Source of the DNA: Pedobacter steynii
Lineage (GTDB): Bacteria > Bacteroidota > Bacteroidia > Sphingobacteriales > Sphingobacteriaceae
DNA: 64,000 nt
Assembly (NCBI RefSeq): GCF_001721645.1
Contig: NZ_CP017141.1
Coordinates: 4,402,001 to 4,466,000 of the forward strand
Reading direction: 5' to 3'
In this document: positions 33 through 24,261 of the stretch, in pieces
How the letters are laid out: every line of letters starts with the position of its first letter
Position numbering within the stretch: position 1 is the stretch's first letter
The notes under the pieces: model-generated
Told to the model about the DNA's origin: nothing
The model's input: the letters and a program-made list of their open reading frames with translations, nothing else
Databases searched by the model: none
Translations under genes and position numbers: made by a program

Positions 33-1559
33 TTATTTAGTCAGTTTGCGGGCATTTAATTGTGCCTGAAACAGAGATGCGGGTTGCAAACCTTTCTGAT
101 CCTGACCTTCCCATTCTCCATCCGGTTTATCTTTTAGTCGCCCGGACAGTTTCTGGCCCTGCAGGCCTATCGAATAATTTTTGCCTGATACCCAGGGGTT
201 TTGAATGGCCGCGGATTTCACTTTGCAATTCCAGACCACCTGTGTTACTCCGGCCCAGCCATGCCCGCTTCCCCAGTTTCCGCGGTCCTGAACGTTAATC
301 TCTCCGTCGGTATCGATGTTATCGTATAAGGTTCCGCTGGCCCAGCGGTGATGAGGGCCGATATCGGCATGGGTATTTCTGGATTTGCATCGGTAAAATA
401 CATTCGGGCCGCAGGTCTTGGCTCCGGTTACGTAATCGTGCCTGCCTTCTGTGGTTTCCAGGTCCATAAAAAGGTTTTGCTGCCCGTTATTATTGAATGA
501 ATACCTTTTTCCGCCCGTAATCACTGATTTTGCATCCAGACATCTGGAATTCTTTACGGTGATGTTCTTTGCGCCGCCATCCAGACTAACGCAGGCATAG
601 CCAAAAAAGCGGGAAGTGACACCTGTAACCCATCCGTTCTCGATGTGGTTAAAGTCTGCCGCGATCCAGCCATGATCTTCATCTGTATCGCTGGCATATT
701 CGGATTCAAAAAGTATGTTTTCTATCCCAACCTCGCTGATTCGGCCCTTGTATTCGTATTTGAAGATGTTTCCACCGCCGTATTGCTGATCCATAGCCAT
801 GACTACAGGATTGTCAATGAAGACCGTGTTGCCCTGAATGCGCAGGATCTCACGCTCATAGCTGAGGTTATAATCTGCCCCTGTCCACTGTTTGGTGCCT
901 TCTCTCGCTACAATCTGATCCATTTGAAGGTCATGTATCCACTTGTCTGTTCCTGGTCTGAACAGGATAATGCGATCGCCGGTTTTTAAGCCTTTCGAAT
1001 CACTCACTTTGAAGGATTTGGCTCCTGTAGGTACATATTGGTCGGTAATCTGAACCCTGGTTCCGGGGATTTCAGTGATTTTTCCTTTACCCTGTATTTT
1101 CAGCAGGGAGCGCAATCCTTTTCCGGATGCAATCAGCCTGGTTGCATCTCCTTCGCTTCCGGCACCTCTCAACACAATGCCGCTGGTTTCAATTGTTAAA
1201 GTGCCGGCAATGGAATAATCCCCTTTTGTCAGAAAAATGGCACCCCGATGTCCATTTGCATCAGCCGGCAGGGCAGAAACCTCATTTATTGCGTTCTGGA
1301 TCATCTTTCCTGCATCTCCTTTTACAGGATTCAGGGTTTTAACGACTTTCAGTTTAGGAATGTTTTTTAGTCCGTGGTGATAACCTACTCCGCTAAAATC
1401 GGGAATGGTATTGCCTTTTTCGTCCGGATGATACTTGATGCTGCCGTCTTTATTGATGCTCAGGAACCTGGAAGTCCAGGTGCCGCTATGCTGGATAAAA
1501 GAAAAGAGAAAGAGGCTGACCGGGAGGATCAGCAGGCAGAAAATGGATTTGTATTTCAT
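33..1559 (-). CDS. Secreted right-handed beta-helix protein (pectate-lyase-like fold)
   Basis: The product is an exported protein of about 508 residues. A basic MKYK start precedes a hydrophobic stretch (residues 7-20) that fits a signal peptide or anchor. The body has the short repeats rich in Asn, Gly and hydrophobic residues typical of right-handed parallel beta-helices, as in GGAKNITVKNSRC. This fold is common in pectate lyases and other polysaccharide-acting enzymes, but I see no diagnostic catalytic motif, so the substrate is unknown. An in-frame ATG lies 22 codons upstream (1625). I rejected it because that stretch overlaps a perfect 16-bp inverted repeat and would bury the signal sequence inside the protein. 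It is downstream of the metal ATPase on the same strand with no evident functional link. Confidence 0.6.
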   Translation of the reverse strand: MKYKSIFCLLILPVSLFLFSFIQHSGTWTSRFLSINKDGSIKYHPDEKGNTIPDFSGVGYHHGLKNIPKLKVVKTLNPVKGDAGKMIQNAINEVSALPADANGHRGAIFLTKGDYSIAGTLTIETSGIVLRGAGSEGDATRLIASGKGLRSLLKIQGKGKITEIPGTRVQITDQYVPTGAKSFKVSDSKGLKTGDRIILFRPGTDKWIHDLQMDQIVAREGTKQWTGADYNLSYEREILRIQGNTVFIDNPVVMAMDQQYGGGNIFKYEYKGRISEVGIENILFESEYASDTDEDHGWIAADFNHIENGWVTGVTSRFFGYACVSLDGGAKNITVKNSRCLDAKSVITGGKRYSFNNNGQQNLFMDLETTEGRHDYVTGAKTCGPNVFYRCKSRNTHADIGPHHRWASGTLYDNIDTDGEINVQDRGNWGSGHGWAGVTQVVWNCKVKSAAIQNPWVSGKNYSIGLQGQKLSGRLKDKPDGEWEGQDQKGLQPASLFQAQLNARKLTK

Positions 1560-4217: not shown

Positions 4218-5450
4218 TTAATGGGCGTGTTCTGAAGGGCCTGAAGATTTGGATTGCAGGTAAAATGCGCCTTTAGTTACCAATCGTGTGTTTGGAGGTA
4301 GTTTTTCCAATGGGTTGATGTTGATATAACCCAATTCTGAAACTCCCGTTACGACTTCTACTTTTTTGAAATGAGTCCCGTGTCCGGCTTCTTTTGCTCC
4401 TGCTTTTTCTTCTTCCTCCACGATGAAAATGTATTCCTTTCCTTCTGCTTTTACTACTGCATCAATGGGTACTGCAGGAGAAAGTGCTGTTCCTACGCTG
4501 ATCAGTCCGGTTACGTACATTCCCGGGATCAGGTTACTCAATGGTTTGGTAATGACTGCATGAACAATGACCCCTTTGGTATCATCTTCAAAAGATTTGT
4601 TGATCCCGTTTAATACCCCTTCAATCTGCTGATTTTCCTGGTTGGTTAACCTGAAACTTACTTTCTGACCGATCTTCACTTTAAAAAGGTCTTTTTCATA
4701 GACCAGCAGATCGGCATGGATCTTGGAATTGTCTACGATATCCATCAGGGAAGTCCCGGGCTGGATGAAAGATCCGGTGGTGACCGAAATCGTTCCGATT
4801 GTACCTGCAATTGGTGCAATAACCGGAATTTCTGAGGTGATTTTACCGGAAGCAACTTTGGAAGGAGAGATACCCAATTGTTGTAGCTGACGTTCCAAAG
4901 CCTTGATTTTGGATAACTCCGAGCGGTAATTTGCTTCGGCAAGCTGATGGGATTTGCCTGTTCCAGCATCTGCCGCTTTTAATTGCTGCTGGCGTTTATA
5001 TTCTGCTTCCACAAAGCTGAACCCGTTCTTTGAAGAAAGGTAATCCTGTTGCAAACGGATCATATCCTGATTCTCCATAATGGCTAATACCTGTCCTTTA
5101 TGCACTTTTTGGCCTTCCAGAACACTGATTCTGCGGATGATCCCACCGGAAAGCAGATTTACTTTGGCTTCATTTTGTGGAGGTACGGCCAGTTGCCCGC
5201 TTGCTTTTACCACTGCGGTGAGGTTTTTCTCTTCAATTTTGCCGATCTGAATGTCTACAGCCTTCATTTGCTGTTCCGTCAATTCGATCTCATCACTGTG
5301 TCCTTCTTCGCCATGCCCTTCTCCTTCATGGGCTTCAGCGGTTTCTTTTGCGGCTGGTTTTGCTTTGTCGCCGGTGCAGGAATTCATACTGATGCTCATC
5401 GAAAGGGCGATCATAAGGGCGAGAGGGAATTGTTTTTTATATCGGTTCAT
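4218..5450 (-). CDS. czcB: RND efflux periplasmic adaptor lipoprotein (CzcB-like)
   Basis: Membrane-fusion protein that bridges the inner-membrane RND pump and the outer-membrane channel. The first 25 residues are a lipoprotein signal ending at Cys25 (SMNSC). Next comes a His/Glu-rich stretch (EAHEGEGHGEEGHSDE), a likely metal-binding tail. The body has the HlyD-type order of barrel-sandwich halves around an alpha-helical hairpin (about residues 115-190) and a beta-barrel with PGMYVTG. The length of 410 residues is normal. It starts 4 bp after the stop of the pump gene, so the two are one operon. Its His-rich tail, like that of the neighbouring ATPase, agrees with Zn/Co/Cd export. Confidence 0.9.
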   Translation of the reverse strand: MNRYKKQFPLALMIALSMSISMNSCTGDKAKPAAKETAEAHEGEGHGEEGHSDEIELTEQQMKAVDIQIGKIEEKNLTAVVKASGQLAVPPQNEAKVNLLSGGIIRRISVLEGQKVHKGQVLAIMENQDMIRLQQDYLSSKNGFSFVEAEYKRQQQLKAADAGTGKSHQLAEANYRSELSKIKALERQLQQLGISPSKVASGKITSEIPVIAPIAGTIGTISVTTGSFIQPGTSLMDIVDNSKIHADLLVYEKDLFKVKIGQKVSFRLTNQENQQIEGVLNGINKSFEDDTKGVIVHAVITKPLSNLIPGMYVTGLISVGTALSPAVPIDAVVKAEGKEYIFIVEEEEKAGAKEAGHGTHFKKVEVVTGVSELGYININPLEKLPPNTRLVTKGAFYLQSKSSGPSEHAH

Positions 5451-5454
5451 CTGA

Positions 5455-8400
5455 TTATTCTCCTTTGATAAATGCTAATTGAATGGTAGTTTGGTTTAAT
5501 TGATTCAATGTCTCCAGGTAAGTGATTTTACTTTGCACGGCCAGAGAGATGTTCTGGACATACTCCATATAGCCGATTTCTCCAAGGTCAAAAGACACCT
5601 GGGCAATGCGCAGCTGCTCTGCAGCCTGTTTTAATCCTTCTGAAGTATAATAGTCTACCGTCTGTTTGTTTTTCAGGTATTCCTGAAAGGCCTGTTCATA
5701 TTGGATTTCGAATTGCTGCTGTGTTTCCTGATACGCGGTTTCTGCGATCTGGGCAGCGATTTTTTCGCTTTTCACCTTTGCCCGGCCCGCGCCATTGAAT
5801 AGAGGAACCGCAATGCCGAACTGAAGGCCTGCAATTCTGGTTCCGGGTGTATAATCCCGGTTCAGTTTTGCGGGGTCAAAAGAGCGGATAACCAGCTGCT
5901 GGCTATAGCCTAGGGTGAAATCGGGTAAAGCTTTAGCTTTTTGAAGTCCGATTTTCGCTTTCGCAATTGCGATCTGTTGCTGCTGAACATCCATCAATGG
6001 ATTGGTGCTGTTGCCTAAAGCCTCATTCGTCCCGGGAGAAAGAATGGGAAGGCTTTTTTCTGCAAGAAGGATTGGAGCTCTGGTATTCAGCAGTTGCTGA
6101 AGCTGTAGTTCCTGAACCCTTAAGCCTGCTCTGGCCATATTTTTTAAGGTCTGTACCTCCTGATATTTGTTTCTTGCCGTCATGAGTTCCAGGTTGGAGG
6201 TTTCTCCGGATTTATACCTCACTTCTGCTTTCTTGATGAAGTTCCGGTATACACTGTCCTGAAAATCAAGGATTTTTAAACTCTCCTGGAAATATAGGTA
6301 ATGGTAATAGGCAATTTTAGTATCTCTGATGATTTCAGCACGGGTATAGCGGGCGGATTGTTCGGAGAGGGCAGTCTGCAGGTTTAAAACCTTTTGTTGG
6401 TTTTTATATAAACCCGGCCATGCAAAAGTCTGGGTGACATTAATGGCATTGTCATTACCGCCCCCACTGGTAGGATCCTGAGAAAGGGAAAATTCTGTTT
6501 TCCCCGGGTCGAAACCTGTCTTTTGCAAGGCTTTACTATGTGTACTTCCCAGGTTGGCAGATTTTAGCTTCAGGTTGTTTTTTACCGCGATAGAAAGAAC
6601 GCTGTCTAAACTAAGCGGATTATTCGTGTTTTGTACCCCGGTATTATTGCTTTGAGCCTGAGCGGAATTGCTGTTCGTTGTTAATGTAAAACCGAGGATT
6701 GCAAGAATGGCCAGTGCTTTTGCAGATTTTTCCGTTGAGATTTTTTTATCTCCAAACAGCAGGTATAAACAAGGCAGGACAAAGAGCGTCAGCAAGGTTG
6801 CCGAAAGCAGGCCTCCTATAACCACCGTAGCCAAAGGTTTTTGTACTTCTGCACCGGCACTACCCGATAAAGCCATAGGCAAGAAGCCCAGTGAAGCCAC
6901 TGCTGCGGTCATGATTACCGGACGAAGTCTGACTTTAGTCCCTTCAATCACACGTTGATAGATATCTGTCATTCCTTCTTCTTTTAATTGATTGAAATAT
7001 CCGATCAGGACAATTCCGTTGAGGACAGCCACTCCAAAAAGGGCGATAAATCCGACCCCTGCGGAAATACTGAAAGGCATGTCTCTGACTAATAAGGCGA
7101 ATACCCCGCCAATCGCAGACAGGGGAACAGCGGTAAAGATGAGGATCGTCTGTCCAAATGATTTAAATGTGGCGTATAGCAGCCCCATAATCAGCAATAA
7201 AGCAATAGGAACCGCTATAGAAAGCCTGTTTTTAGCTTTAGTCAGGTTTTCAAACTGGCCGCCATAGGTCAGGTAATAACCCGATGGAAGCTTTAGTTTC
7301 GCATCGAGGATTTGCTGGATCTCTGAAACCGTACGCTCCACATCGCGGCCTTTGACATTGAATCCTACATAAATCCTTCTTTTTCCATCTTCTCTGGAGA
7401 TCTGGGCCGGGGCATTTTTTAGTGCAATGCTCGCCACCTGGTTCAGGGGTACTTTATTTCCGGAAGGGAGGGGAAGGTACAGGTTTTCAATACTGGATAT
7501 GTTTTCTCTGAGTTCTCTTTCCAGCCGGACGACCATTTCAAAACGTTTTTCTCCTTCAAAGATCACCCCCGCAGTATTTCCGGCAAAGGCGGTTTTCAGT
7601 AAGGTGTTGACCTCGGAAATGCTCAGTCCATATTGGGCGATCTTATCGCGGTCGTATTCTACAACAATCTGAGGCAGGCCGGTCACTTGTTCTATAAAAG
7701 GTTCATTTACGCCCGACACAGGTGCGATCAGAGCCGCAATTTTATTGGCCTGCTGGGTCAGTATATCCAGGTCTTCTCCGTAAATTTTGATGGCTACATC
7801 CTGACGAACACCAGTCATCAGTTCATTAAAACGCATTTGCATTGGTTGAGTGATTTCAATATTCACACCTGGAAGGATGGAAAGTGCTTCCTCTATTTTT
7901 TCCGACATCTCTGGTTTTGATGAGGCTGTTTTCCATTCTTCCTTTGGTTTCATTGCCACCATCATGTCTCCGCGTTCTACGGGCATGGGATCGGTTGGAA
8001 TCTCTGCACTTCCGATTCTGGTGACCACCTGTTTTACTTCAGGGAATTGTTCCTTCAGGATCTTTTCTGCTTTGCCAAAGGTCTCTACCACCTGGGTGAG
8101 CGAGGTTCCCTGCGACATTGAGATTTCTACCGCCAGGTCACCTTCTTCCAGTTGCGGAAGGAATTCTCCTCCCATCTGGTTAAATACCCATAGGGTGAAG
8201 GCGAACAGCAATATGGCGAAGGCCACTGTAAGTTTCTTGAATTTCAGCACCAGTACCAGGGCGGGTTGATAAGCCTTACGCAAGGCATCCATGATTTTGT
8301 CTGAAATGTTCCTCTTGTGTGTGGTGTTCTTGCTCAGGAATAAAGCCGTCATCATCGGGACATAGGTCATGGACAGGATGAAAGCCCCTACAATTGCAAA

Positions 8401-14651: not shown

Positions 14652-16040
14652 TTAAATACCTGTATCTTTTTTCAATTCTATTACATCCTGAACGTCTTGA
14701 GGTAGGTTCGAAAGCAGGTTATAACCCGTTGCTTTCTCGATATCTCTTACCGTTACCGTATATTTTTTCCAATCCGGATCAATGGTGTTGATGTTCGGTG
14801 TATTTATAGCGATTACCCTGGTAGAAGTACTTACTCTCTGCACGTCGCCATTTCCGTTAGGAATAACTACGGCAACTTTCCATACGTTACTTGGTACAGT
14901 TACTTTTCCGTTATCAATAGTACTGGTCATGGCTCCTGAACTTCCAACGCCACCAACTCCGTAACTACCCATAATAATGTATACCTCATTTCCTGCAGTC
15001 ACCTGCGAACGGAGGTAGCTTTCCAGACCTTCCCATGTTTTTTGATTATTCATCGGTGCCTGAGGGATCATGTTGTTCATTAAGAAAGTGGCACCATTCG
15101 CTTCTTTGGAACTGATGCGGTCGGCAGAAGGACAGTTATGACCTCGGTCAAAACCAGATCCGGAATAGCTGCTGCTTAATACCTGGTAAAAACCGGAAGG
15201 TAGGCCGGTATAGCCTGCAAAATTATCTAGTCTTTCTGTTCCTTTGGTGATGCTTTTGGCATCCAGATGCCAGCTTACCCAGTTTGGTGTGCCTCTGCCG
15301 CTGCTATAGGATTGGGTGTAATAACGCATATCTAAGAGGTAGTTCTCTGGTGTAACTGTACTTGCGCCTGAAGGATTTCCGAAAAGTGCATTGCTGTCAT
15401 CTCCGGTGAGAGGTTGTGCATCCGGGCCAACTACCAGGTCGCGGGAAGGCAAGGTAGGGTTAGGATTACCACCTTCTCCCGGATCGGTATCAGGTTTTCC
15501 TAAAATGATTCCCGACTCTCCGGTTCCCTTAAAGATGATGTCATCTATGTTTACTCTGGTACTCGCACTTGTTTTTTGGATCTGGAAACGTACCTTTCCT
15601 TGTGTGTTGATCTGGAAGGAATCGGTAACCAGGGTGGTATTGGTTTCCTGAATCTCTGCACCCAGTGGGGTAAAAGTGGTACCGCCATCTGTAGACATTA
15701 ATAATTGCCAGGAAGAGTTGGCGTCTTTACCATATTTACCATGGCTGATATATAAAGTCTTTAATCCGCTCACATCAAAATTCATGGTGATTTTTCCGGT
15801 TCTTAACCTGGCGCTTTTCAGACCGGTTTTCAAATCGGCAGGCAGGTTACCAACCAATGCGTCTTCGAAATTCCATACCCCGGTGATCAGCGTATCCGTT
15901 TTAGCCGCATAAGCAGTTTTACTGCCATTTTCGAAATCTTCTGTAATTTTGTAGGTGACTGGAGTGTCGTCTCTTTTGGAACAACCTGCTAAAGTGAAGA
16001 TAGTCAGGGAGCTGTAGATAAGTAAATGTTTGATTCTCAT
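14652..16040 (-). CDS. Surface lipoprotein with DNA/RNA non-specific endonuclease domain
   Basis: A 462-residue lipoprotein (signal ending LAGC at residue 19), probably exposed outside the inner membrane. Residues 30-175 look like a jelly-roll-type domain of the kind seen in Bacteroidota cell-surface proteins (MNFDVSGLKTLYISHGKYG). Residues about 210-445 are the NUC endonuclease domain: DRGHNCPSADR contains the DRGH motif with the catalytic His, and FLMNNMIPQAPMNNQ holds the Mg-binding Asn. It degrades DNA and RNA, likely for nutrient scavenging. It stands alone, with its own terminator, divergent from a small gene at 16220. Confidence 0.88.
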   Translation of the reverse strand: MRIKHLLIYSSLTIFTLAGCSKRDDTPVTYKITEDFENGSKTAYAAKTDTLITGVWNFEDALVGNLPADLKTGLKSARLRTGKITMNFDVSGLKTLYISHGKYGKDANSSWQLLMSTDGGTTFTPLGAEIQETNTTLVTDSFQINTQGKVRFQIQKTSASTRVNIDDIIFKGTGESGIILGKPDTDPGEGGNPNPTLPSRDLVVGPDAQPLTGDDSNALFGNPSGASTVTPENYLLDMRYYTQSYSSGRGTPNWVSWHLDAKSITKGTERLDNFAGYTGLPSGFYQVLSSSYSGSGFDRGHNCPSADRISSKEANGATFLMNNMIPQAPMNNQKTWEGLESYLRSQVTAGNEVYIIMGSYGVGGVGSSGAMTSTIDNGKVTVPSNVWKVAVVIPNGNGDVQRVSTSTRVIAINTPNINTIDPDWKKYTVTVRDIEKATGYNLLSNLPQDVQDVIELKKDTGI

Positions 16041-16219: not shown

Positions 16220-16450
16220 GTGAGTATTCCCGTTTTTGTATTTTATGAGCTGTTGATCAGGCTATCCGAACTGAACCCCAATGTGGGAGATTATTTTTCG
16301 CATACCCTGCTGGAAAAAGAAGTGATTTTGCAAACCACCACCGGCCTGGTGAAGGTTCCCCGCAATTTATTGAAAAAGCAATTTACTGATCCCAGGTTAA
16401 TCGCTGAGTCCGAACTTTCTGCCCTGATCACACATTTTAAAGCGAGCTGA
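16220..16450 (+). CDS. Small hypothetical protein (GTG start)
   Basis: A 76-residue soluble protein I do not recognise. It opens MSIPVFVFYELLIRLSEL and has a balanced composition with a plausible helix, strand, helix pattern and no signal peptide. There is no in-frame ATG near the start; GTG follows a -7-like element. It is convergent with the SRAP-like gene, ending 9 bp before that gene's stop. Support comes from the promoter position and sensible protein composition, not homology. Confidence 0.5.
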   Translation: MSIPVFVFYELLIRLSELNPNVGDYFSHTLLEKEVILQTTTGLVKVPRNLLKKQFTDPRLIAESELSALITHFKAS

Positions 16451-16459
16451 GTTAAAGGA

Positions 16460-17131
16460 TCAGGCCGGAACATGATTCAAAGGTTTGATCAGGCTGGGAT
16501 CATTGATGTTTCTATCCGCGATATCTCTGGATACCAGAAACTTCAGCATCTGTTCTTCAGGGTAAGCGGTACATACCGACAGCAGTTCTTCTTCGGATGC
16601 TCCTTTGCTGAGCCATAATTTTTCGGTTTCCGGAGTTAAAATAACCGGCATGGATTTACGGATATCCCTCACTAATGGATTGGCAGGGGTAGTGACGATA
16701 CAAAAGGACTCGTACCTTTCTTTGGTTTCAGGATCTATCCAGGCAGACCATAATCCAGCCATTGCAAACACCTGACGGTCCTTCAATTGAAACCGGAAAG
16801 GGTATTTGTCTGCTCCAAACCTTTGCCAGATATAGAATGCATCAGCCAGAATCAGACATCTTTTGTTGGCGGTTACCAATTGTTTAAATACTGGTTTGAC
16901 CATGATCTGGGAGCTTCGGGCATCGCACATGGATGATTTTCGTTCTTTAAAGAAGAAAGGAACCATCGAGAAATGCATTTTTCTGATCAGCTGGGGCTGA
17001 TCAGCAGCGATGACCATTCCGGGCATATATATACCTATATTATAGGTAGGGGTATAATCCCCCTCAAGCTGGTAAGGATAGTATTGTTGGAGTGTTGAGA
17101 GTCCTTCAGCAAGAGAATAAGATGAAGCCAT
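16460..17131 (-). CDS. Degenerate SRAP (YedK/HMCES-like) protein, probable pseudoenzyme
   Basis: The 223-residue protein has the SRAP fold signature throughout: YNIG, CDARSSQIMVKPVF, RCLILADAFYIW, AMAGLWSAW, IVTTPANPLV and MPVIL. Active SRAP proteins open MCGR, with Cys2 forming the DNA-protein crosslink at abasic sites. This one opens MASSYSL, so Cys2 is replaced by Ala. The conserved Asn (NAR) is Asp70, the Glu of FYEW is Ile101, and the His of IHDRMP is Arg158. All four residues needed for crosslinking and reversal are therefore lost while the scaffold is intact. It may still bind DNA or have a new role. Upstream sequence offers no alternative MCGR start. Confidence 0.82.
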   Translation of the reverse strand: MASSYSLAEGLSTLQQYYPYQLEGDYTPTYNIGIYMPGMVIAADQPQLIRKMHFSMVPFFFKERKSSMCDARSSQIMVKPVFKQLVTANKRCLILADAFYIWQRFGADKYPFRFQLKDRQVFAMAGLWSAWIDPETKERYESFCIVTTPANPLVRDIRKSMPVILTPETEKLWLSKGASEEELLSVCTAYPEEQMLKFLVSRDIADRNINDPSLIKPLNHVPA

Positions 17132-17171: not shown

Positions 17172-17459
17172 CTATTCGTGCAGATGAAGCTTTTTGTTCA
17201 AGTCTCTGATCTCCTCCTGCATCCGACTGACCTTTTGTAATAAATGTCTGATTGCGTCGATTCCCTCCATATTAATGTGCAGGTCGTAATGTAAATGAAT
17301 GTATTTATCCAGTTCGCTGAACTGCTCCTGATGAACGCACTTTTCTTCCCCGATAAGGGTGAATATAATGATACCCGACTCTTCCAGAGAAACCATAAAA
17401 GAAGGGTCTATGTCGTAATTGATACAATATTCAGTGATGGTGATGAATTCTGTTTCCAT
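17172..17459 (-). CDS. cbpM: Chaperone modulator CbpM
   Basis: A 95-residue MerR-like helical protein that binds the J-domain of CbpA and restrains it. The C-terminal third (about residues 65-93) is a coiled-coil-like helix, AIRHLLQKVSRMQEEIRDLN, as in the family. It starts 11 bp after the stop of the cbpA-like gene, the standard pairing. Length is normal. Confidence 0.8.
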   Translation of the reverse strand: METEFITITEYCINYDIDPSFMVSLEESGIIIFTLIGEEKCVHQEQFSELDKYIHLHYDLHINMEGIDAIRHLLQKVSRMQEEIRDLNKKLHLHE

Positions 17460-17470
17460 AGTTGCAGGGG

Positions 17471-18373
17471 TTAACTCAGGTTTTGTAATTCCCTGAAGAG
17501 TTCTTTTTGCTTGTCGGTCAGGTCGGATGGGATCTTTACGGTGTAAGTGATAAACATATTCCCGAATTCTCCTTCTTTCTTATAAACAGGAAAGCCCTTG
17601 TTTTTTAGCCTCACCTTTGTTCCGTTCTGGGTTCCGGCAGGTACTTTCAGTTTTACCTTTCCATCCAGTGTTTCAATGGTGACTTCGCCCCCCAGAATGG
17701 CGGTATAGAGGTCAATCTCCTGTTGGATATAAAGGTCGTTGTTCAGTCTTTTAAACATAGCATCTTCTTCAATATTGATAGTAATGTAGAGGTCGCCGGC
17801 CGGGCCTCCGTTTACGCCGGGGCCGCCATGTCCGCTTAATTTAATGACCTGCTCGTCTGCGATACCTGCAGGAATGGTGATGCGTATGTTCTTTCCGTTA
17901 ACGGTTAAAGTTTGTTTATGGGTTTGATAAGCGCTTCTCAGTTTCAGGCTTAGTGATGCCTGATAATCCTGACCTTTATATTTTACGCTGTTTCTTCCTG
18001 ATCTTCCGCTTCCGCCGCCAAACATCGATTCAAAGAAATCTGAAAAGTCTCCGCCTCCGAAATCAGCACTGCCATATCCTCCTCCGGAGAAGGGATTTTG
18101 GGTACGTTGTCTGGATTGGGACCTTTTAGACTGCTCAAACTGTTCGGAATTTTTCCAGTGTTCTCCGTAATCGTCGTATTTCTTTCTTTTGTCCGGATCG
18201 CTAAGCGCCTCATTGGCTTCGTTGATCTCCTGAAACCTCTTATTGGCCTCCTTATCATTAGGGTTGAGGTCCGGATGATATTTTCTTGCCAATTTTCGGT
18301 AGGCTTTTTTTATATCGTCCTGAGAAGCCTTCTTGTCGATACCCAGAATCTTATAATAGTCTATGAATGCCAT
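17471..18373 (-). CDS. cbpA: DnaJ-family co-chaperone (CbpA-like)
   Basis: A 300-residue Hsp40. Residues 1-70 form the J-domain with the DnaK-activating HPD ([10 protein letters not shown]). A Gly/Phe-rich linker ([15 protein letters not shown], about 93-118) follows, then two C-terminal peptide-binding domains (residues about 130-295) including [19 protein letters not shown]. There is no Cys-rich zinc-finger domain, which separates CbpA from DnaJ. It is co-transcribed with CbpM. A TAAATTTG -7 element lies 20 bp upstream of the ATG. Confidence 0.9.
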
Positions 18374-18393: not shown

Positions 18394-18401
18394 CAAATTT
18401 A
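18394..18401 (-). promoter_or_regulatory. Candidate -7 element of cbpA-cbpM
   Basis: TAAATTTG on the minus strand, 20 bp before the cbpA ATG. Confidence 0.45.
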
Positions 18402-18486
18402 AGATAATATTTTCAGGCTTTATCAAATTGTAGCCAATTGGTTTAAGTTAGTGTTTTTAATACACCCGTTTTCTCAGGAATAATAA

Positions 18487-18624: not shown

Positions 18625-18819
18625 ATGAAACCAAACCAAATCAATTTAAGAAGAGATTTTATGAAGAACTCTGAGTTGGGAGTCGCCGCATTCAGCATGA
18701 TGCCCCGATATGTCCCTGATGGTACCGGCTATTTAGCTTCCGGCGGGATCAAAACCTTTAGCGATAATCAGGAACTGATCAGACTTAATGAATTAGCTGT
18801 CAATCAGATTAAAAGATAA
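18625..18819 (+). pseudogene. Internally deleted remnant of a Gfo/Idh/MocA oxidoreductase gene
   Basis: A 64-codon frame immediately before an intact Gfo/Idh/MocA gene. Its first 40 residues resemble that family's Tat leader: LRRDFMKN with PRYVPDGTGYLA here, against SRRNFIKT with PRHVLGGKGFLA in the next gene. Its last 24 residues resemble the same protein's C-terminus: IK...D...L...N....VNQIKR against IK...D...L...N....VNQFVKR, and the 9-mer GTCAATCAG is shared at the DNA level. About 400 central codons are missing. A Glu in the leader's hydrophobic core would weaken export. It looks like a decayed duplicate; a small expressed peptide is the alternative. Confidence 0.65.
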
Positions 18820-18821
18820 AA

Positions 18822-20279
18822 ATGATGGAAGAAAAAAAGAACCCGACTGCAGATCATTCCAGAAGAAATTTTATTAAAACAACTGCTTTAGCTGCAGCCG
18901 GTTTTATGATTGTGCCGAGACATGTATTGGGTGGAAAAGGATTTCTTGCGCCCAGCGACCGATTGATGGTTGCCGGAGTAGGAGTTGGAGGAAAAGGTCA
19001 AAGCAACCTGAGTAATATATATAAAGGTGGAAAGGCTGATATCGCCTTTTTATGTGATGTAGACGATCGCCGGGCTGCAAATTCAGTGAAGAATTTTCCG
19101 GCAGCAAAATATTATAAGGATTACCGGCAGATGCTGGATAAGGAAGCGAAGCATATTGATGGGGTAGTCGTTTCTACACCAGATCATAACCATGCCATGA
19201 TTGCGATGGCCGCGATGCAACTGGGTAAACATGTGTATGTCGAAAAACCGCTGACGCACGATATATTTGAGGCCCGAAAGCTGACCGAAGCGGCAGGCCG
19301 TTATCAGGTGGTTACCCAAATGGGAAATCAGGGTTCTTCCGGAGATGGTGTACGGCAGCTTCAGGACTGGTGTGATGCCGGTCTGATTGGAAAAGTTCAT
19401 ACCGTGTATTGCTGGACAGACCGTCCATCCTGGCCACAGGGAATTTTATGGCCGTCTGCAACAGGTGTTGTTCCTCCGGAACTGGACTGGGACCTTTGGC
19501 TGGGAAGTGCACCCTATAAACCTTTTATCGATAAACTGGTGCCCTTTAACTGGAGAGGTTGGTGGGATTACGGAACAGGGGCAATCGGCGATATGGGTTG
19601 TCATCTGGTGGAACCTCCTTTTCGGATTCTGGGACTGGATACCCCGATTGATGTGCAGTGTAGCGTTGGAAGTATTTATGTGGATGAATTTAAAAGAGGC
19701 TATTTTCCGGATAGCTGTCCGCCTTCCAGTCATGTCATCATGACCTTTAAGAAAACAAAGAAGACCAAGGGAGATCTGCAGATCCATTGGATGGATGGAG
19801 GAATTAAACCAGCCCGTCCGGAAGAACTGGCTGCGAACGAGCCTTTTGGGACAAATGGGGTGCTGTTTGAAGGCACCAGAGGGAAAATGATGTGCGATGT
19901 CTATGGAGCGAACCCTCGCTTGTTGCCTTTGAGCAGGAATAATGAGGTACACATCAAGCCAAGGGCAGAGAGAGTAACCGGTGGTGTGGACGGACATTAC
20001 TGGGACTGGGCAGAAGCCTGTATTGCTGGTTATGGAAAGAAACAGCTGAGTTCTCCTTTTGAAATTGCGGGGCCACTTACAGAAACCCTGCTGATCGCAA
20101 ATCTGGCGATAAGAGGGACAGATGTTCAGGTACCCCGGTCTACCGGAAATGGTTTTGATTATCCTGGTCGGGACATTAAACTGATCTGGGATAAAGAGAA
20201 CCTGAGGGTAACTAATTTTGATGAAGTCAATCAGTTTGTGAAACGGGAATACCGTAAAGGCTGGAGTTTAGGTGTATAA
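18822..20279 (+). CDS. Tat-exported Gfo/Idh/MocA-family oxidoreductase
   Basis: NAD(P)-dependent oxidoreductase of about 485 residues acting probably on a sugar or polyol in the periplasm. The twin-arginine leader is SRRNFIKTTALAAAGF (residues 13-28). The Rossmann domain has GVGVGGKG, with FLCDVDDR at the second strand, and the family motif EKPLTH near residue 140. The C-terminal half shows the Trp-rich stretch NWRGWWDYGTGAIGDMGCH typical of the secreted Bacteroidota subgroup. A second Gfo/Idh/MocA gene starts 17 bp later, so they are an operon, and a decayed copy lies just upstream. ATG at 18825 is equally possible. The substrate cannot be read. Confidence 0.88.
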   Translation: MMEEKKNPTADHSRRNFIKTTALAAAGFMIVPRHVLGGKGFLAPSDRLMVAGVGVGGKGQSNLSNIYKGGKADIAFLCDVDDRRAANSVKNFPAAKYYKDYRQMLDKEAKHIDGVVVSTPDHNHAMIAMAAMQLGKHVYVEKPLTHDIFEARKLTEAAGRYQVVTQMGNQGSSGDGVRQLQDWCDAGLIGKVHTVYCWTDRPSWPQGILWPSATGVVPPELDWDLWLGSAPYKPFIDKLVPFNWRGWWDYGTGAIGDMGCHLVEPPFRILGLDTPIDVQCSVGSIYVDEFKRGYFPDSCPPSSHVIMTFKKTKKTKGDLQIHWMDGGIKPARPEELAANEPFGTNGVLFEGTRGKMMCDVYGANPRLLPLSRNNEVHIKPRAERVTGGVDGHYWDWAEACIAGYGKKQLSSPFEIAGPLTETLLIANLAIRGTDVQVPRSTGNGFDYPGRDIKLIWDKENLRVTNFDEVNQFVKREYRKGWSLGV

Positions 20280-23163: not shown

Positions 23164-24261
23164 ATGGATTCTTTGTCGCAACCAGCCCAACGTAAGATTA
23201 TACATATTGATATGGATTCATTTTATGCTTCTGTAGAACAAAGGGACAATTCTGCACTCAGGGGAAAGCCTGTAGCAGTTGGTGGTGGGCCTGAAGGACG
23301 TGGCGGGGTAGTGGCAACCGCCAGCTATGAAGCAAGGGCATTTGGAGTACATTCAGCCATGTCGTCCAAAAGGGCACAGCAATTATGCCCTCATCTTTTA
23401 TTTGTTTATCCCAGATTTGCGGTCTATAAGGAGGTTTCCAGGCAAATCCGTGAAATCTTTAGCAGATATACTGACTTGATAGAGCCTTTATCGCTGGACG
23501 AAGCCTACCTTGATGTCAGTCATGATAAACTTGGAATCGGATCAGCAATTGAAATTGCAAAAGCCATCAAAGCAGCAATCAAAGAAGAACTGAATCTGAC
23601 CGCCTCTGCAGGTGTTTCTATTAATAAATTTGTGGCTAAGGTTGCTTCCAATATGAATAAGCCGGATGGCCTTACCTTCATTGGCCCTTCTAAAGTGGAG
23701 GATTTTATTGGAAAATTGCCGGTTGAGAAGTTTCATGGAGTAGGTAAGGTGACCGCTGAAAAGATGAAAATCAGAGGTTTACATACTGGTGCAGATCTGA
23801 AAAAACTAACCGAGGCAGAGCTGGTCCATCTTTTTGGAAAGAGTGGGCGTTTTTTTTATAAAATTGTGAGGGGGCTGGACCACCGCAAGGTCGAACCCAA
23901 TCAGGAGACAAAATCCATCGGGGCCGAAGATACTTTTTCCTTTGATCTGGAAGAGTTGTCGGAAATGAAGCCTGAACTGGAAAGGATTGCGCAAATTGTA
24001 TTCCAGCGGATGAGCCTTTACCGGCTCTATGGAAGGACATTGACTGTGAAAATTAAGTTTAGTGATTTTAAGCAGATTACGAGGAGTAAATCTTTTGCGG
24101 AAGAAATTACGACCATCGAGATGGTCAATGAGGTATCCTGGTCATTGTTAACTGCTGCTGATCTGGAAGGAAGAAAGGTCAGGTTGCTGGGGGTCTCTGT
24201 TTCTAACTTCAATCCCGCGCCGGAGAAGGGAATGTTATATCAGCCGAGGCTTTTCCCATAG
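23164..24261 (+). CDS. dinB: DNA polymerase IV (Y-family, DinB)
   Basis: Translesion polymerase of 365 residues. The catalytic acidic motifs are DMDSFYASVE near residue 16 and SLDEAYLDV near 112. The steric gate region and the thumb HhH motif (KFHGVGKVTAEKMKIRG) are intact. The C-terminus ends MLYQPRLFP, where QPRLF fits the sliding-clamp binding consensus QxxLF. A short palindrome, AAGGCT-TC-AGCCTT, directly abuts the ATG. No LexA-like box was recognised, so SOS control cannot be claimed. The neighbouring histone-like gene ends at a terminator, so dinB should have its own promoter. Confidence 0.94.
   Translation: MDSLSQPAQRKIIHIDMDSFYASVEQRDNSALRGKPVAVGGGPEGRGGVVATASYEARAFGVHSAMSSKRAQQLCPHLLFVYPRFAVYKEVSRQIREIFSRYTDLIEPLSLDEAYLDVSHDKLGIGSAIEIAKAIKAAIKEELNLTASAGVSINKFVAKVASNMNKPDGLTFIGPSKVEDFIGKLPVEKFHGVGKVTAEKMKIRGLHTGADLKKLTEAELVHLFGKSGRFFYKIVRGLDHRKVEPNQETKSIGAEDTFSFDLEELSEMKPELERIAQIVFQRMSLYRLYGRTLTVKIKFSDFKQITRSKSFAEEITTIEMVNEVSWSLLTAADLEGRKVRLLGVSVSNFNPAPEKGMLYQPRLFP

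Follow-up and report, generated by a model that had tools for sequence, protein, structure and literature searches.

The SRAP gene and its neighbours

The window analysed here is a 64,000-nucleotide stretch of Pedobacter steynii DNA (NZ_CP017141.1, positions 4,402,001 to 4,466,000 of the forward strand). The features on which the analysis turns are listed below, in window coordinates.

16460..17131, minus strand: gene for a non-catalytic SRAP-fold protein of 223 amino acids (PF02586, AlphaFold, VIA)
17126..17128, minus strand: Ala2 codon; Cys2 in active SRAPs, Ala or Ser within the clade
17120..17122, minus strand: Ser4 codon; 34/34 active relatives have Arg4, 7/7 clade members Ser
16922..16924, minus strand: Asp70 codon, equivalent to YedK Asn75; Asp, Asn or Thr in the clade
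16829..16831, minus strand: Ile101 codon, equivalent to YedK Glu105; Ile or Leu in the clade
16658..16660, minus strand: Arg158 codon, equivalent to YedK His160; Arg, Ser or Gly in the clade
16652..16654, minus strand: Ser160 codon, equivalent to YedK Arg162; Ser in 7/7 clade members
17172..17459, minus strand: CbpM-like gene (MerR_2; PF13591, 89.9 bits), 40 bp upstream of the SRAP start
17471..18373, minus strand: gene for a CbpA-like J-domain protein (DnaJ and DnaJ_C), 11 bp upstream of the cbpM-like gene
18394..18427, minus strand: candidate promoter of the Bacteroidota type (TTTG-N22-TAAATTTG), immediately 5' of the cbpA-like gene
23164-24261, plus strand: gene for DNA polymerase IV, some 6 kb away from the SRAP gene

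The SRAP reading frame is free of internal stops, and its product matches the SRAP profile PF02586 with 147.3 bits against a cut-off of 27.1. An AlphaFold model, made from an input alignment of 19 rows, had a pLDDT of 90.7 and a pTM of 0.89. VIA-align gave this model a Z of 27.8 and an rmsd of 2.0 over 215 residues to BT_1218 (2f20, 2f20_B), and a Z of 24.4 to YedK C2A (8d2m); Foldseek and VIA-align grouped it with BT_1218 (2f20), HMCES and YedK. By descent and fold the window protein is a member of the SRAP superfamily, and its SRAP (BB1717-like) fold is predicted to be intact, which says nothing on function. A preliminary description of this DNA had reported an SRAP protein here that keeps the YedK/HMCES scaffold, with Ala2, Asp70, Ile101 and Arg158 at the catalytic positions; the profile match and model bear out the former, and alignment with YedK (C2 to A2, N75 to D70, E105 to I101, H160 to R158) the latter. 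Because the four catalytic features that define the SRAP cross-linker/autopeptidase class (Cys2, Asn75, Glu105 and His160) were tested and are all missing, the protein, as judged from its residues, would fall outside that class.

The CbpM-like protein scored just 23 bits against the NCBIfam CbpM model and the CbpA-like protein 179.5 bits against the NCBIfam 'curved DNA-binding protein' model, both under the model cut-offs. The cbpA-like, cbpM-like and SRAP genes lie in this order on one strand, with short gaps, in all seven genomes of the clade described below, and among the cbpM loci examined SRAP is the third gene after cbpA/cbpM in this Pedobacter clade only. The gap between the cbpM-like and SRAP genes held no terminator-like site, in a scan whose hits were at background frequency overall. 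The candidate promoter motif occurs in the window at chance level (4 found, 3.4 expected), and its position alone is suggestive. From this arrangement we infer that SRAP is co-transcribed with the cbpA-like and cbpM-like genes.

With regard to an SOS-associated context (umuCD, imuAB-dnaE2 or dinB as neighbours), the window has the DNA polymerase IV gene some 6 kb away. Such a gene is linked to the cbpM locus also in a species that lacks SRAP there (G209) and in one that carries only a relic (G251), so the linkage says nothing specific on SRAP; it either predates SRAP or is independent of it. A dependence on loss of a Y-family polymerase was rejected, as such polymerases were kept in all genomes searched. 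On its other side the SRAP gene is separated from sulP by a DNA/RNA non-specific endonuclease gene (14652-16040, minus strand) and a 76-residue open reading frame (16220-16450, plus strand); only the window strain and the four carriers closest to it have these two there, G359 and G281 do not. A short open reading frame at 18625-18819 (plus strand) resembles a decayed duplicate of the N-terminal signal region of the GFO_IDH_MocA gene immediately downstream (18822-20279).

Recurrence, selection and loss in Pedobacter

Intact orthologues with 66-88% identity were found at the same locus, following cbpA-like and cbpM-like genes, in six further Pedobacter species, which under their putative names are Pedobacter sp. 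KBW06 (G382), G296, P. steynii (G436), P. caeni (G401), P. polysacchareus (G359) and Pedobacter sp. PLR (G281). Across the seven members, position 2 reads A,A,A,A,A,S,S. In YedK numbering, position 105 is I or L in every member, position 160 reads R,R,R,R,R,S,G and position 75 reads D,D,N,N,N,T,T. The suggestion that the window's substitutions might recur in a clade thus holds for Cys2, Glu105 and His160, gone from 7/7, and not for Asn75, kept in 3/7; the clade signature is the loss of the first three residues, with loss of Asn75 no part of it.

Conservation was judged on the 65 columns with 90% conservation or more among 34 active relatives. Over half of these are unchanged in the clade, core motifs among them, while those lost include Cys2, Arg4, Ala39, Gly62, Glu79, Glu105, His160, Arg162 and two C-terminal Asn. 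Beyond the catalytic four, the replacements are R4 to S, E79 to S/T, R162 to S, A39 to G and those of the C-terminal Asn pair, with Arg4 and Arg162 invariant in all 34 active relatives and Ser in every clade member. Asn37, Trp106 and Thr149 are kept in 7/7, and position 77 is Arg or Lys. Within the clade 121 of the 223 positions are invariant, 26 of them clade-private, and the four catalytic columns are all variable. The seven sequences form a monophyletic group with 96% bootstrap support; its stem is about 1 substitution per site long, and its sister group consists of the main active Sphingobacteriaceae SRAPs in the sample.

A wider survey took in 116 distinct SRAP reading frames from all the loci collected, viral contigs included. 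In the 109 outside the clade, Cys2 was present wherever aligned and Glu105 wherever covered, and His160 was replaced in four (Tyr, Gly and two Gln). The N-terminus was unaligned in 17 of the 109, most of which have an MC start near the N-terminus, the exceptions being L137, L132 and L090. The residue-level survey found no Cys-less SRAP among the viral loci, and the viral structure library gave no match below E 0.001. Phage or plasmid origin was rejected, since the SRAPs of viral contigs and of plasmids were all distant, with at best 43% and about 38% identity, respectively.

Some further copies have irregular reading frames. L137 (G094) is a broken copy with Trp at position 2, and together with L088 (G326) and L090 (G388) it belongs to other Pedobacter SRAP copies of active type that are stop-bearing or truncated; SRAP copies seem to arise and decay often in this genus. 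The start of L125 (G145:C4) reads TCARYTLT against the MCARYTLT of its relatives, through a non-ATG or lost start codon.

Selection was measured with a GY-type one-ratio codon model in our own code, whose log-likelihood (−2930.9) matches that of IQ-TREE. The seven-member clade had an omega of 0.079, and setting omega to 1 gave a log-likelihood of −3229.1, about 298 units worse. Two sets of active SRAPs had omegas of 0.031 and 0.035, and the neighbours in the same seven genomes 0.098 (cbpM), 0.049 (cbpA) and 0.041 (sulP). Both subclades are constrained (0.076 for the window subclade, 0.065 for the G359-G281 pair). Because every member lacks the catalytic residues, parsimony places the divergence of the clade after the loss of catalysis; synonymous change on the stem is saturated, and the omega figures cover divergence after the loss, not the loss phase. 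The clade SRAP is clearly under strong purifying selection and is an old, selected pseudoenzyme, not fresh decay. The claim that this was not simple decay, for which a dN/dS check had been proposed, is upheld by this rejection of omega = 1, together with the seven-species clade, the predicted intact fold and the conserved locus.

This selection depends on lineage, as sister species have broken or lost the gene on at least three occasions. In a tree of cbpA plus cbpM the carriers grouped with G412, G251 and G209. The G412 copy (L075, minus strand, about 4930-5585) has three single-base deletions, beside intact cbpA, cbpM and sulP; it differs from G359 by 9, 8 and 50 changes at codon positions 1, 2 and 3, and because these are mostly at third positions its decay is recent. 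The G251 relic (L105, about 1358-1495, minus strand) consists of start and end pieces only in the interval from the cbpM-like gene to sulP (85-92 bp and 43 bp, E 1e-16 to 1e-17), and in G209 no SRAP trace is left at the cbpM locus. A recent gain, read from the genomes with an empty site, was rejected, since G209 and G251 nest among carriers and the G251 relic also points to losses. The simplest history is one old gain followed by three losses. G412 with its frameshifted copy, G251 with a relic and G209 without the gene show that some lineages can do without it and that the CbpA/CbpM module does not require it.

Other SRAPs are present in G412, G251 and G209, where they are of catalytic type, and also in G359 and G281; those inspected (L077-L080 and L094) have an MC start. 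The complete window genome (6.58 Mb) has no second SRAP at E up to 10, and none of the genomes of the five-species window subclade contains another. The active MCGR paralogue whose presence had been put forward for checking is therefore missing, the window gene being the sole SRAP, and in the window strain and its four relatives the protein cannot serve to regulate an active SRAP within the cell or act as its decoy. Losses occurred in 3/5 species with other SRAPs and 0/5 without, a sample too small and too clumped by phylogeny for the contrast to carry weight.

Possible functions of the clade protein

The SRAP chemistry known so far runs through Cys2, called 'absolutely conserved' in the family-defining paper (PMC3765255). 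When the Cys2 thiol is removed, as in YedK C2A, no stable cross-link is made and a weak lyase activity proceeds through the N-terminal amine; the C2A/E105Q lyase is 25-fold slower than that of C2A (PMC9436759). Glu105 is needed in Schiff-base formation, His160 aids ring opening, and Asn75 alone is of little weight at internal AP sites (PMC9436759). Given A2, I101 and R158 and these data for C2A and C2A/E105Q, the window protein is predicted to be nearly inert in AP-site chemistry, and by analogy with the YedK kinetics the thiazolidine cross-link of Cys2 with abasic sites would not be formed. The earlier term 'non-crosslinking' is what such residue losses would lead one to expect. The product of the window gene is a genuine pseudoenzyme within the SRAP superfamily, and the clade SRAP probably does a job other than covalent DNA capping.

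Our favoured explanation, to which we give about an even chance, is that the clade SRAP binds its ligand non-covalently and is co-expressed with the CbpA/CbpM co-chaperone module. The CbpA protein of E. coli is a co-chaperone associated with the nucleoid, and CbpM inhibits it (PMC4063869 and PMC4344490). SRAP, the CbpA-like co-chaperone and the CbpM-like modulator would be made from one transcript, with SRAP acting as a non-covalent binder inside the module. Its binding surfaces would be the clade-constant segments, such as KERYESFCI, SMPxILTPETEK and IADR; the old pocket would be out of use, its four catalytic positions drifting between species, and the ligand could be a protein partner or nucleic acid. 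Protein binding in the module is preferred because of the adjacency and because constraint lies away from the catalytic positions. The adjacency to cbpA/cbpM, which is the sole basis of the module link, could be passive, since neighbours are also kept by common descent. The fuller proposal, that the lineage left abasic-site chemistry to become a dedicated non-covalent component of a CbpA/CbpM co-chaperone-nucleoid module, is tentative and on balance doubtful; if true, it would give the SRAP fold a function of a new kind.

The module reading competes chiefly with residual DNA binding. In line with the preliminary description, which had suggested binding of single-stranded or abasic DNA, the protein would bind or protect such DNA non-covalently, its SRAP groove still holding DNA without the chemistry; this we consider somewhat unlikely. 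The retention of Asn37, Arg/Lys77, Trp106 and Thr149 in 7/7 would be compatible with it and counts against the favoured reading; the predicted fold also matches the SRAP-DNA complexes 6oov, 6kbz and 8d2m, and the mean pI of the clade, 7.7, is slightly over the 7.2 of active relatives. However, Arg4 and Arg162 have become Ser in every member, Glu79 and Ala39 are replaced too, and Arg162 is, by our mapping, probably one of the two arginines proposed as DNA contacts (PMC3765255), so that despite the retained residues the sequence lends the suggestion no support. It is improbable that the gene is a dispensable remnant, with catalysis lost first and the gene slowly vanishing. The frameshift in G412, the relic in G251 and the absence from G209 fit such a course, as does a clade omega about twice that of active SRAPs, but the intact lineages have omegas of 0.05-0.08, all accumulated after catalysis was lost, and the codon-position pattern of the G412-G359 differences (9, 8, 50) implies that even the G412 copy was selected until recently.

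A changed chemistry, in which the N-terminal amine of Ala2 or Ser2 forms Schiff bases after Met removal and supports a weak AP lyase or other aldehyde reaction, is very improbable. Residue 2 is always Ala or Ser, both of which permit Met removal. YedK C2A does cut AP-DNA via its N-terminal amine (PMC9436759), but Glu105, needed for the Schiff base, is Ile or Leu in 7/7, its loss in C2A/E105Q goes with the 25-fold drop from C2A, His160 is gone, and clade members differ from one another at the catalytic positions. An artefact of sequencing or annotation, such as a misplaced start codon that conceals MCGR, has a negligible probability and is refuted by the orthologues: the seven independent genomes agree, and replacement of Cys2, Glu105 and His160 in six independently sequenced genomes rules out sequencing error. 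The in-frame residues 5' of the SRAP start (TKSFICTNRILLPFYKKILTSQ-MASSYSL) contain no MCGR and no MC motif, which rules out a misread start.

A natural Cys-less SRAP is not described in the literature searched, outside which lie many subscription papers. That the clade has lost the Cys, Glu and His and two invariant arginines yet remains under strong selection suggests that the SRAP fold can be retained for non-covalent work. It also makes the clade SRAP a natural tool for telling apart the holding and the cross-linking of DNA by SRAPs.

Comparison with known systems

The window protein resembles YedK and HMCES in fold and length; structural alignment over about 200-216 residues gives 21-27% identity, and core motifs such as LADxFYxW and MPVIL are kept. 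Unlike them, it has no Cys2, Glu105, His160, Arg4 or Arg162, and its gene does not directly adjoin SOS polymerase genes. The active Sphingobacteriaceae SRAPs of the MCAR/MCGR type (e.g. G338, G402), its sister group, share about 40-44% identity with it but keep all the catalytic residues; some adjoin UmuD/UmuC-like genes (Peptidase_S24 and IMS in G338, IMS in G356). The laboratory mutants YedK C2A (PDB 8d2m) and C2A/E105Q share the loss at position 2, and the double mutant also that of the catalytic carboxylate, whereas the change in the clade is natural, more extensive and maintained by selection. The likeness to the CbpA-CbpM pair lies in the two genes directly upstream, one for a J-domain protein and one for a MerR_2/CbpM-like protein; what sets this Pedobacter clade apart, among the cbpM loci examined, is a third gene, of the SRAP fold.
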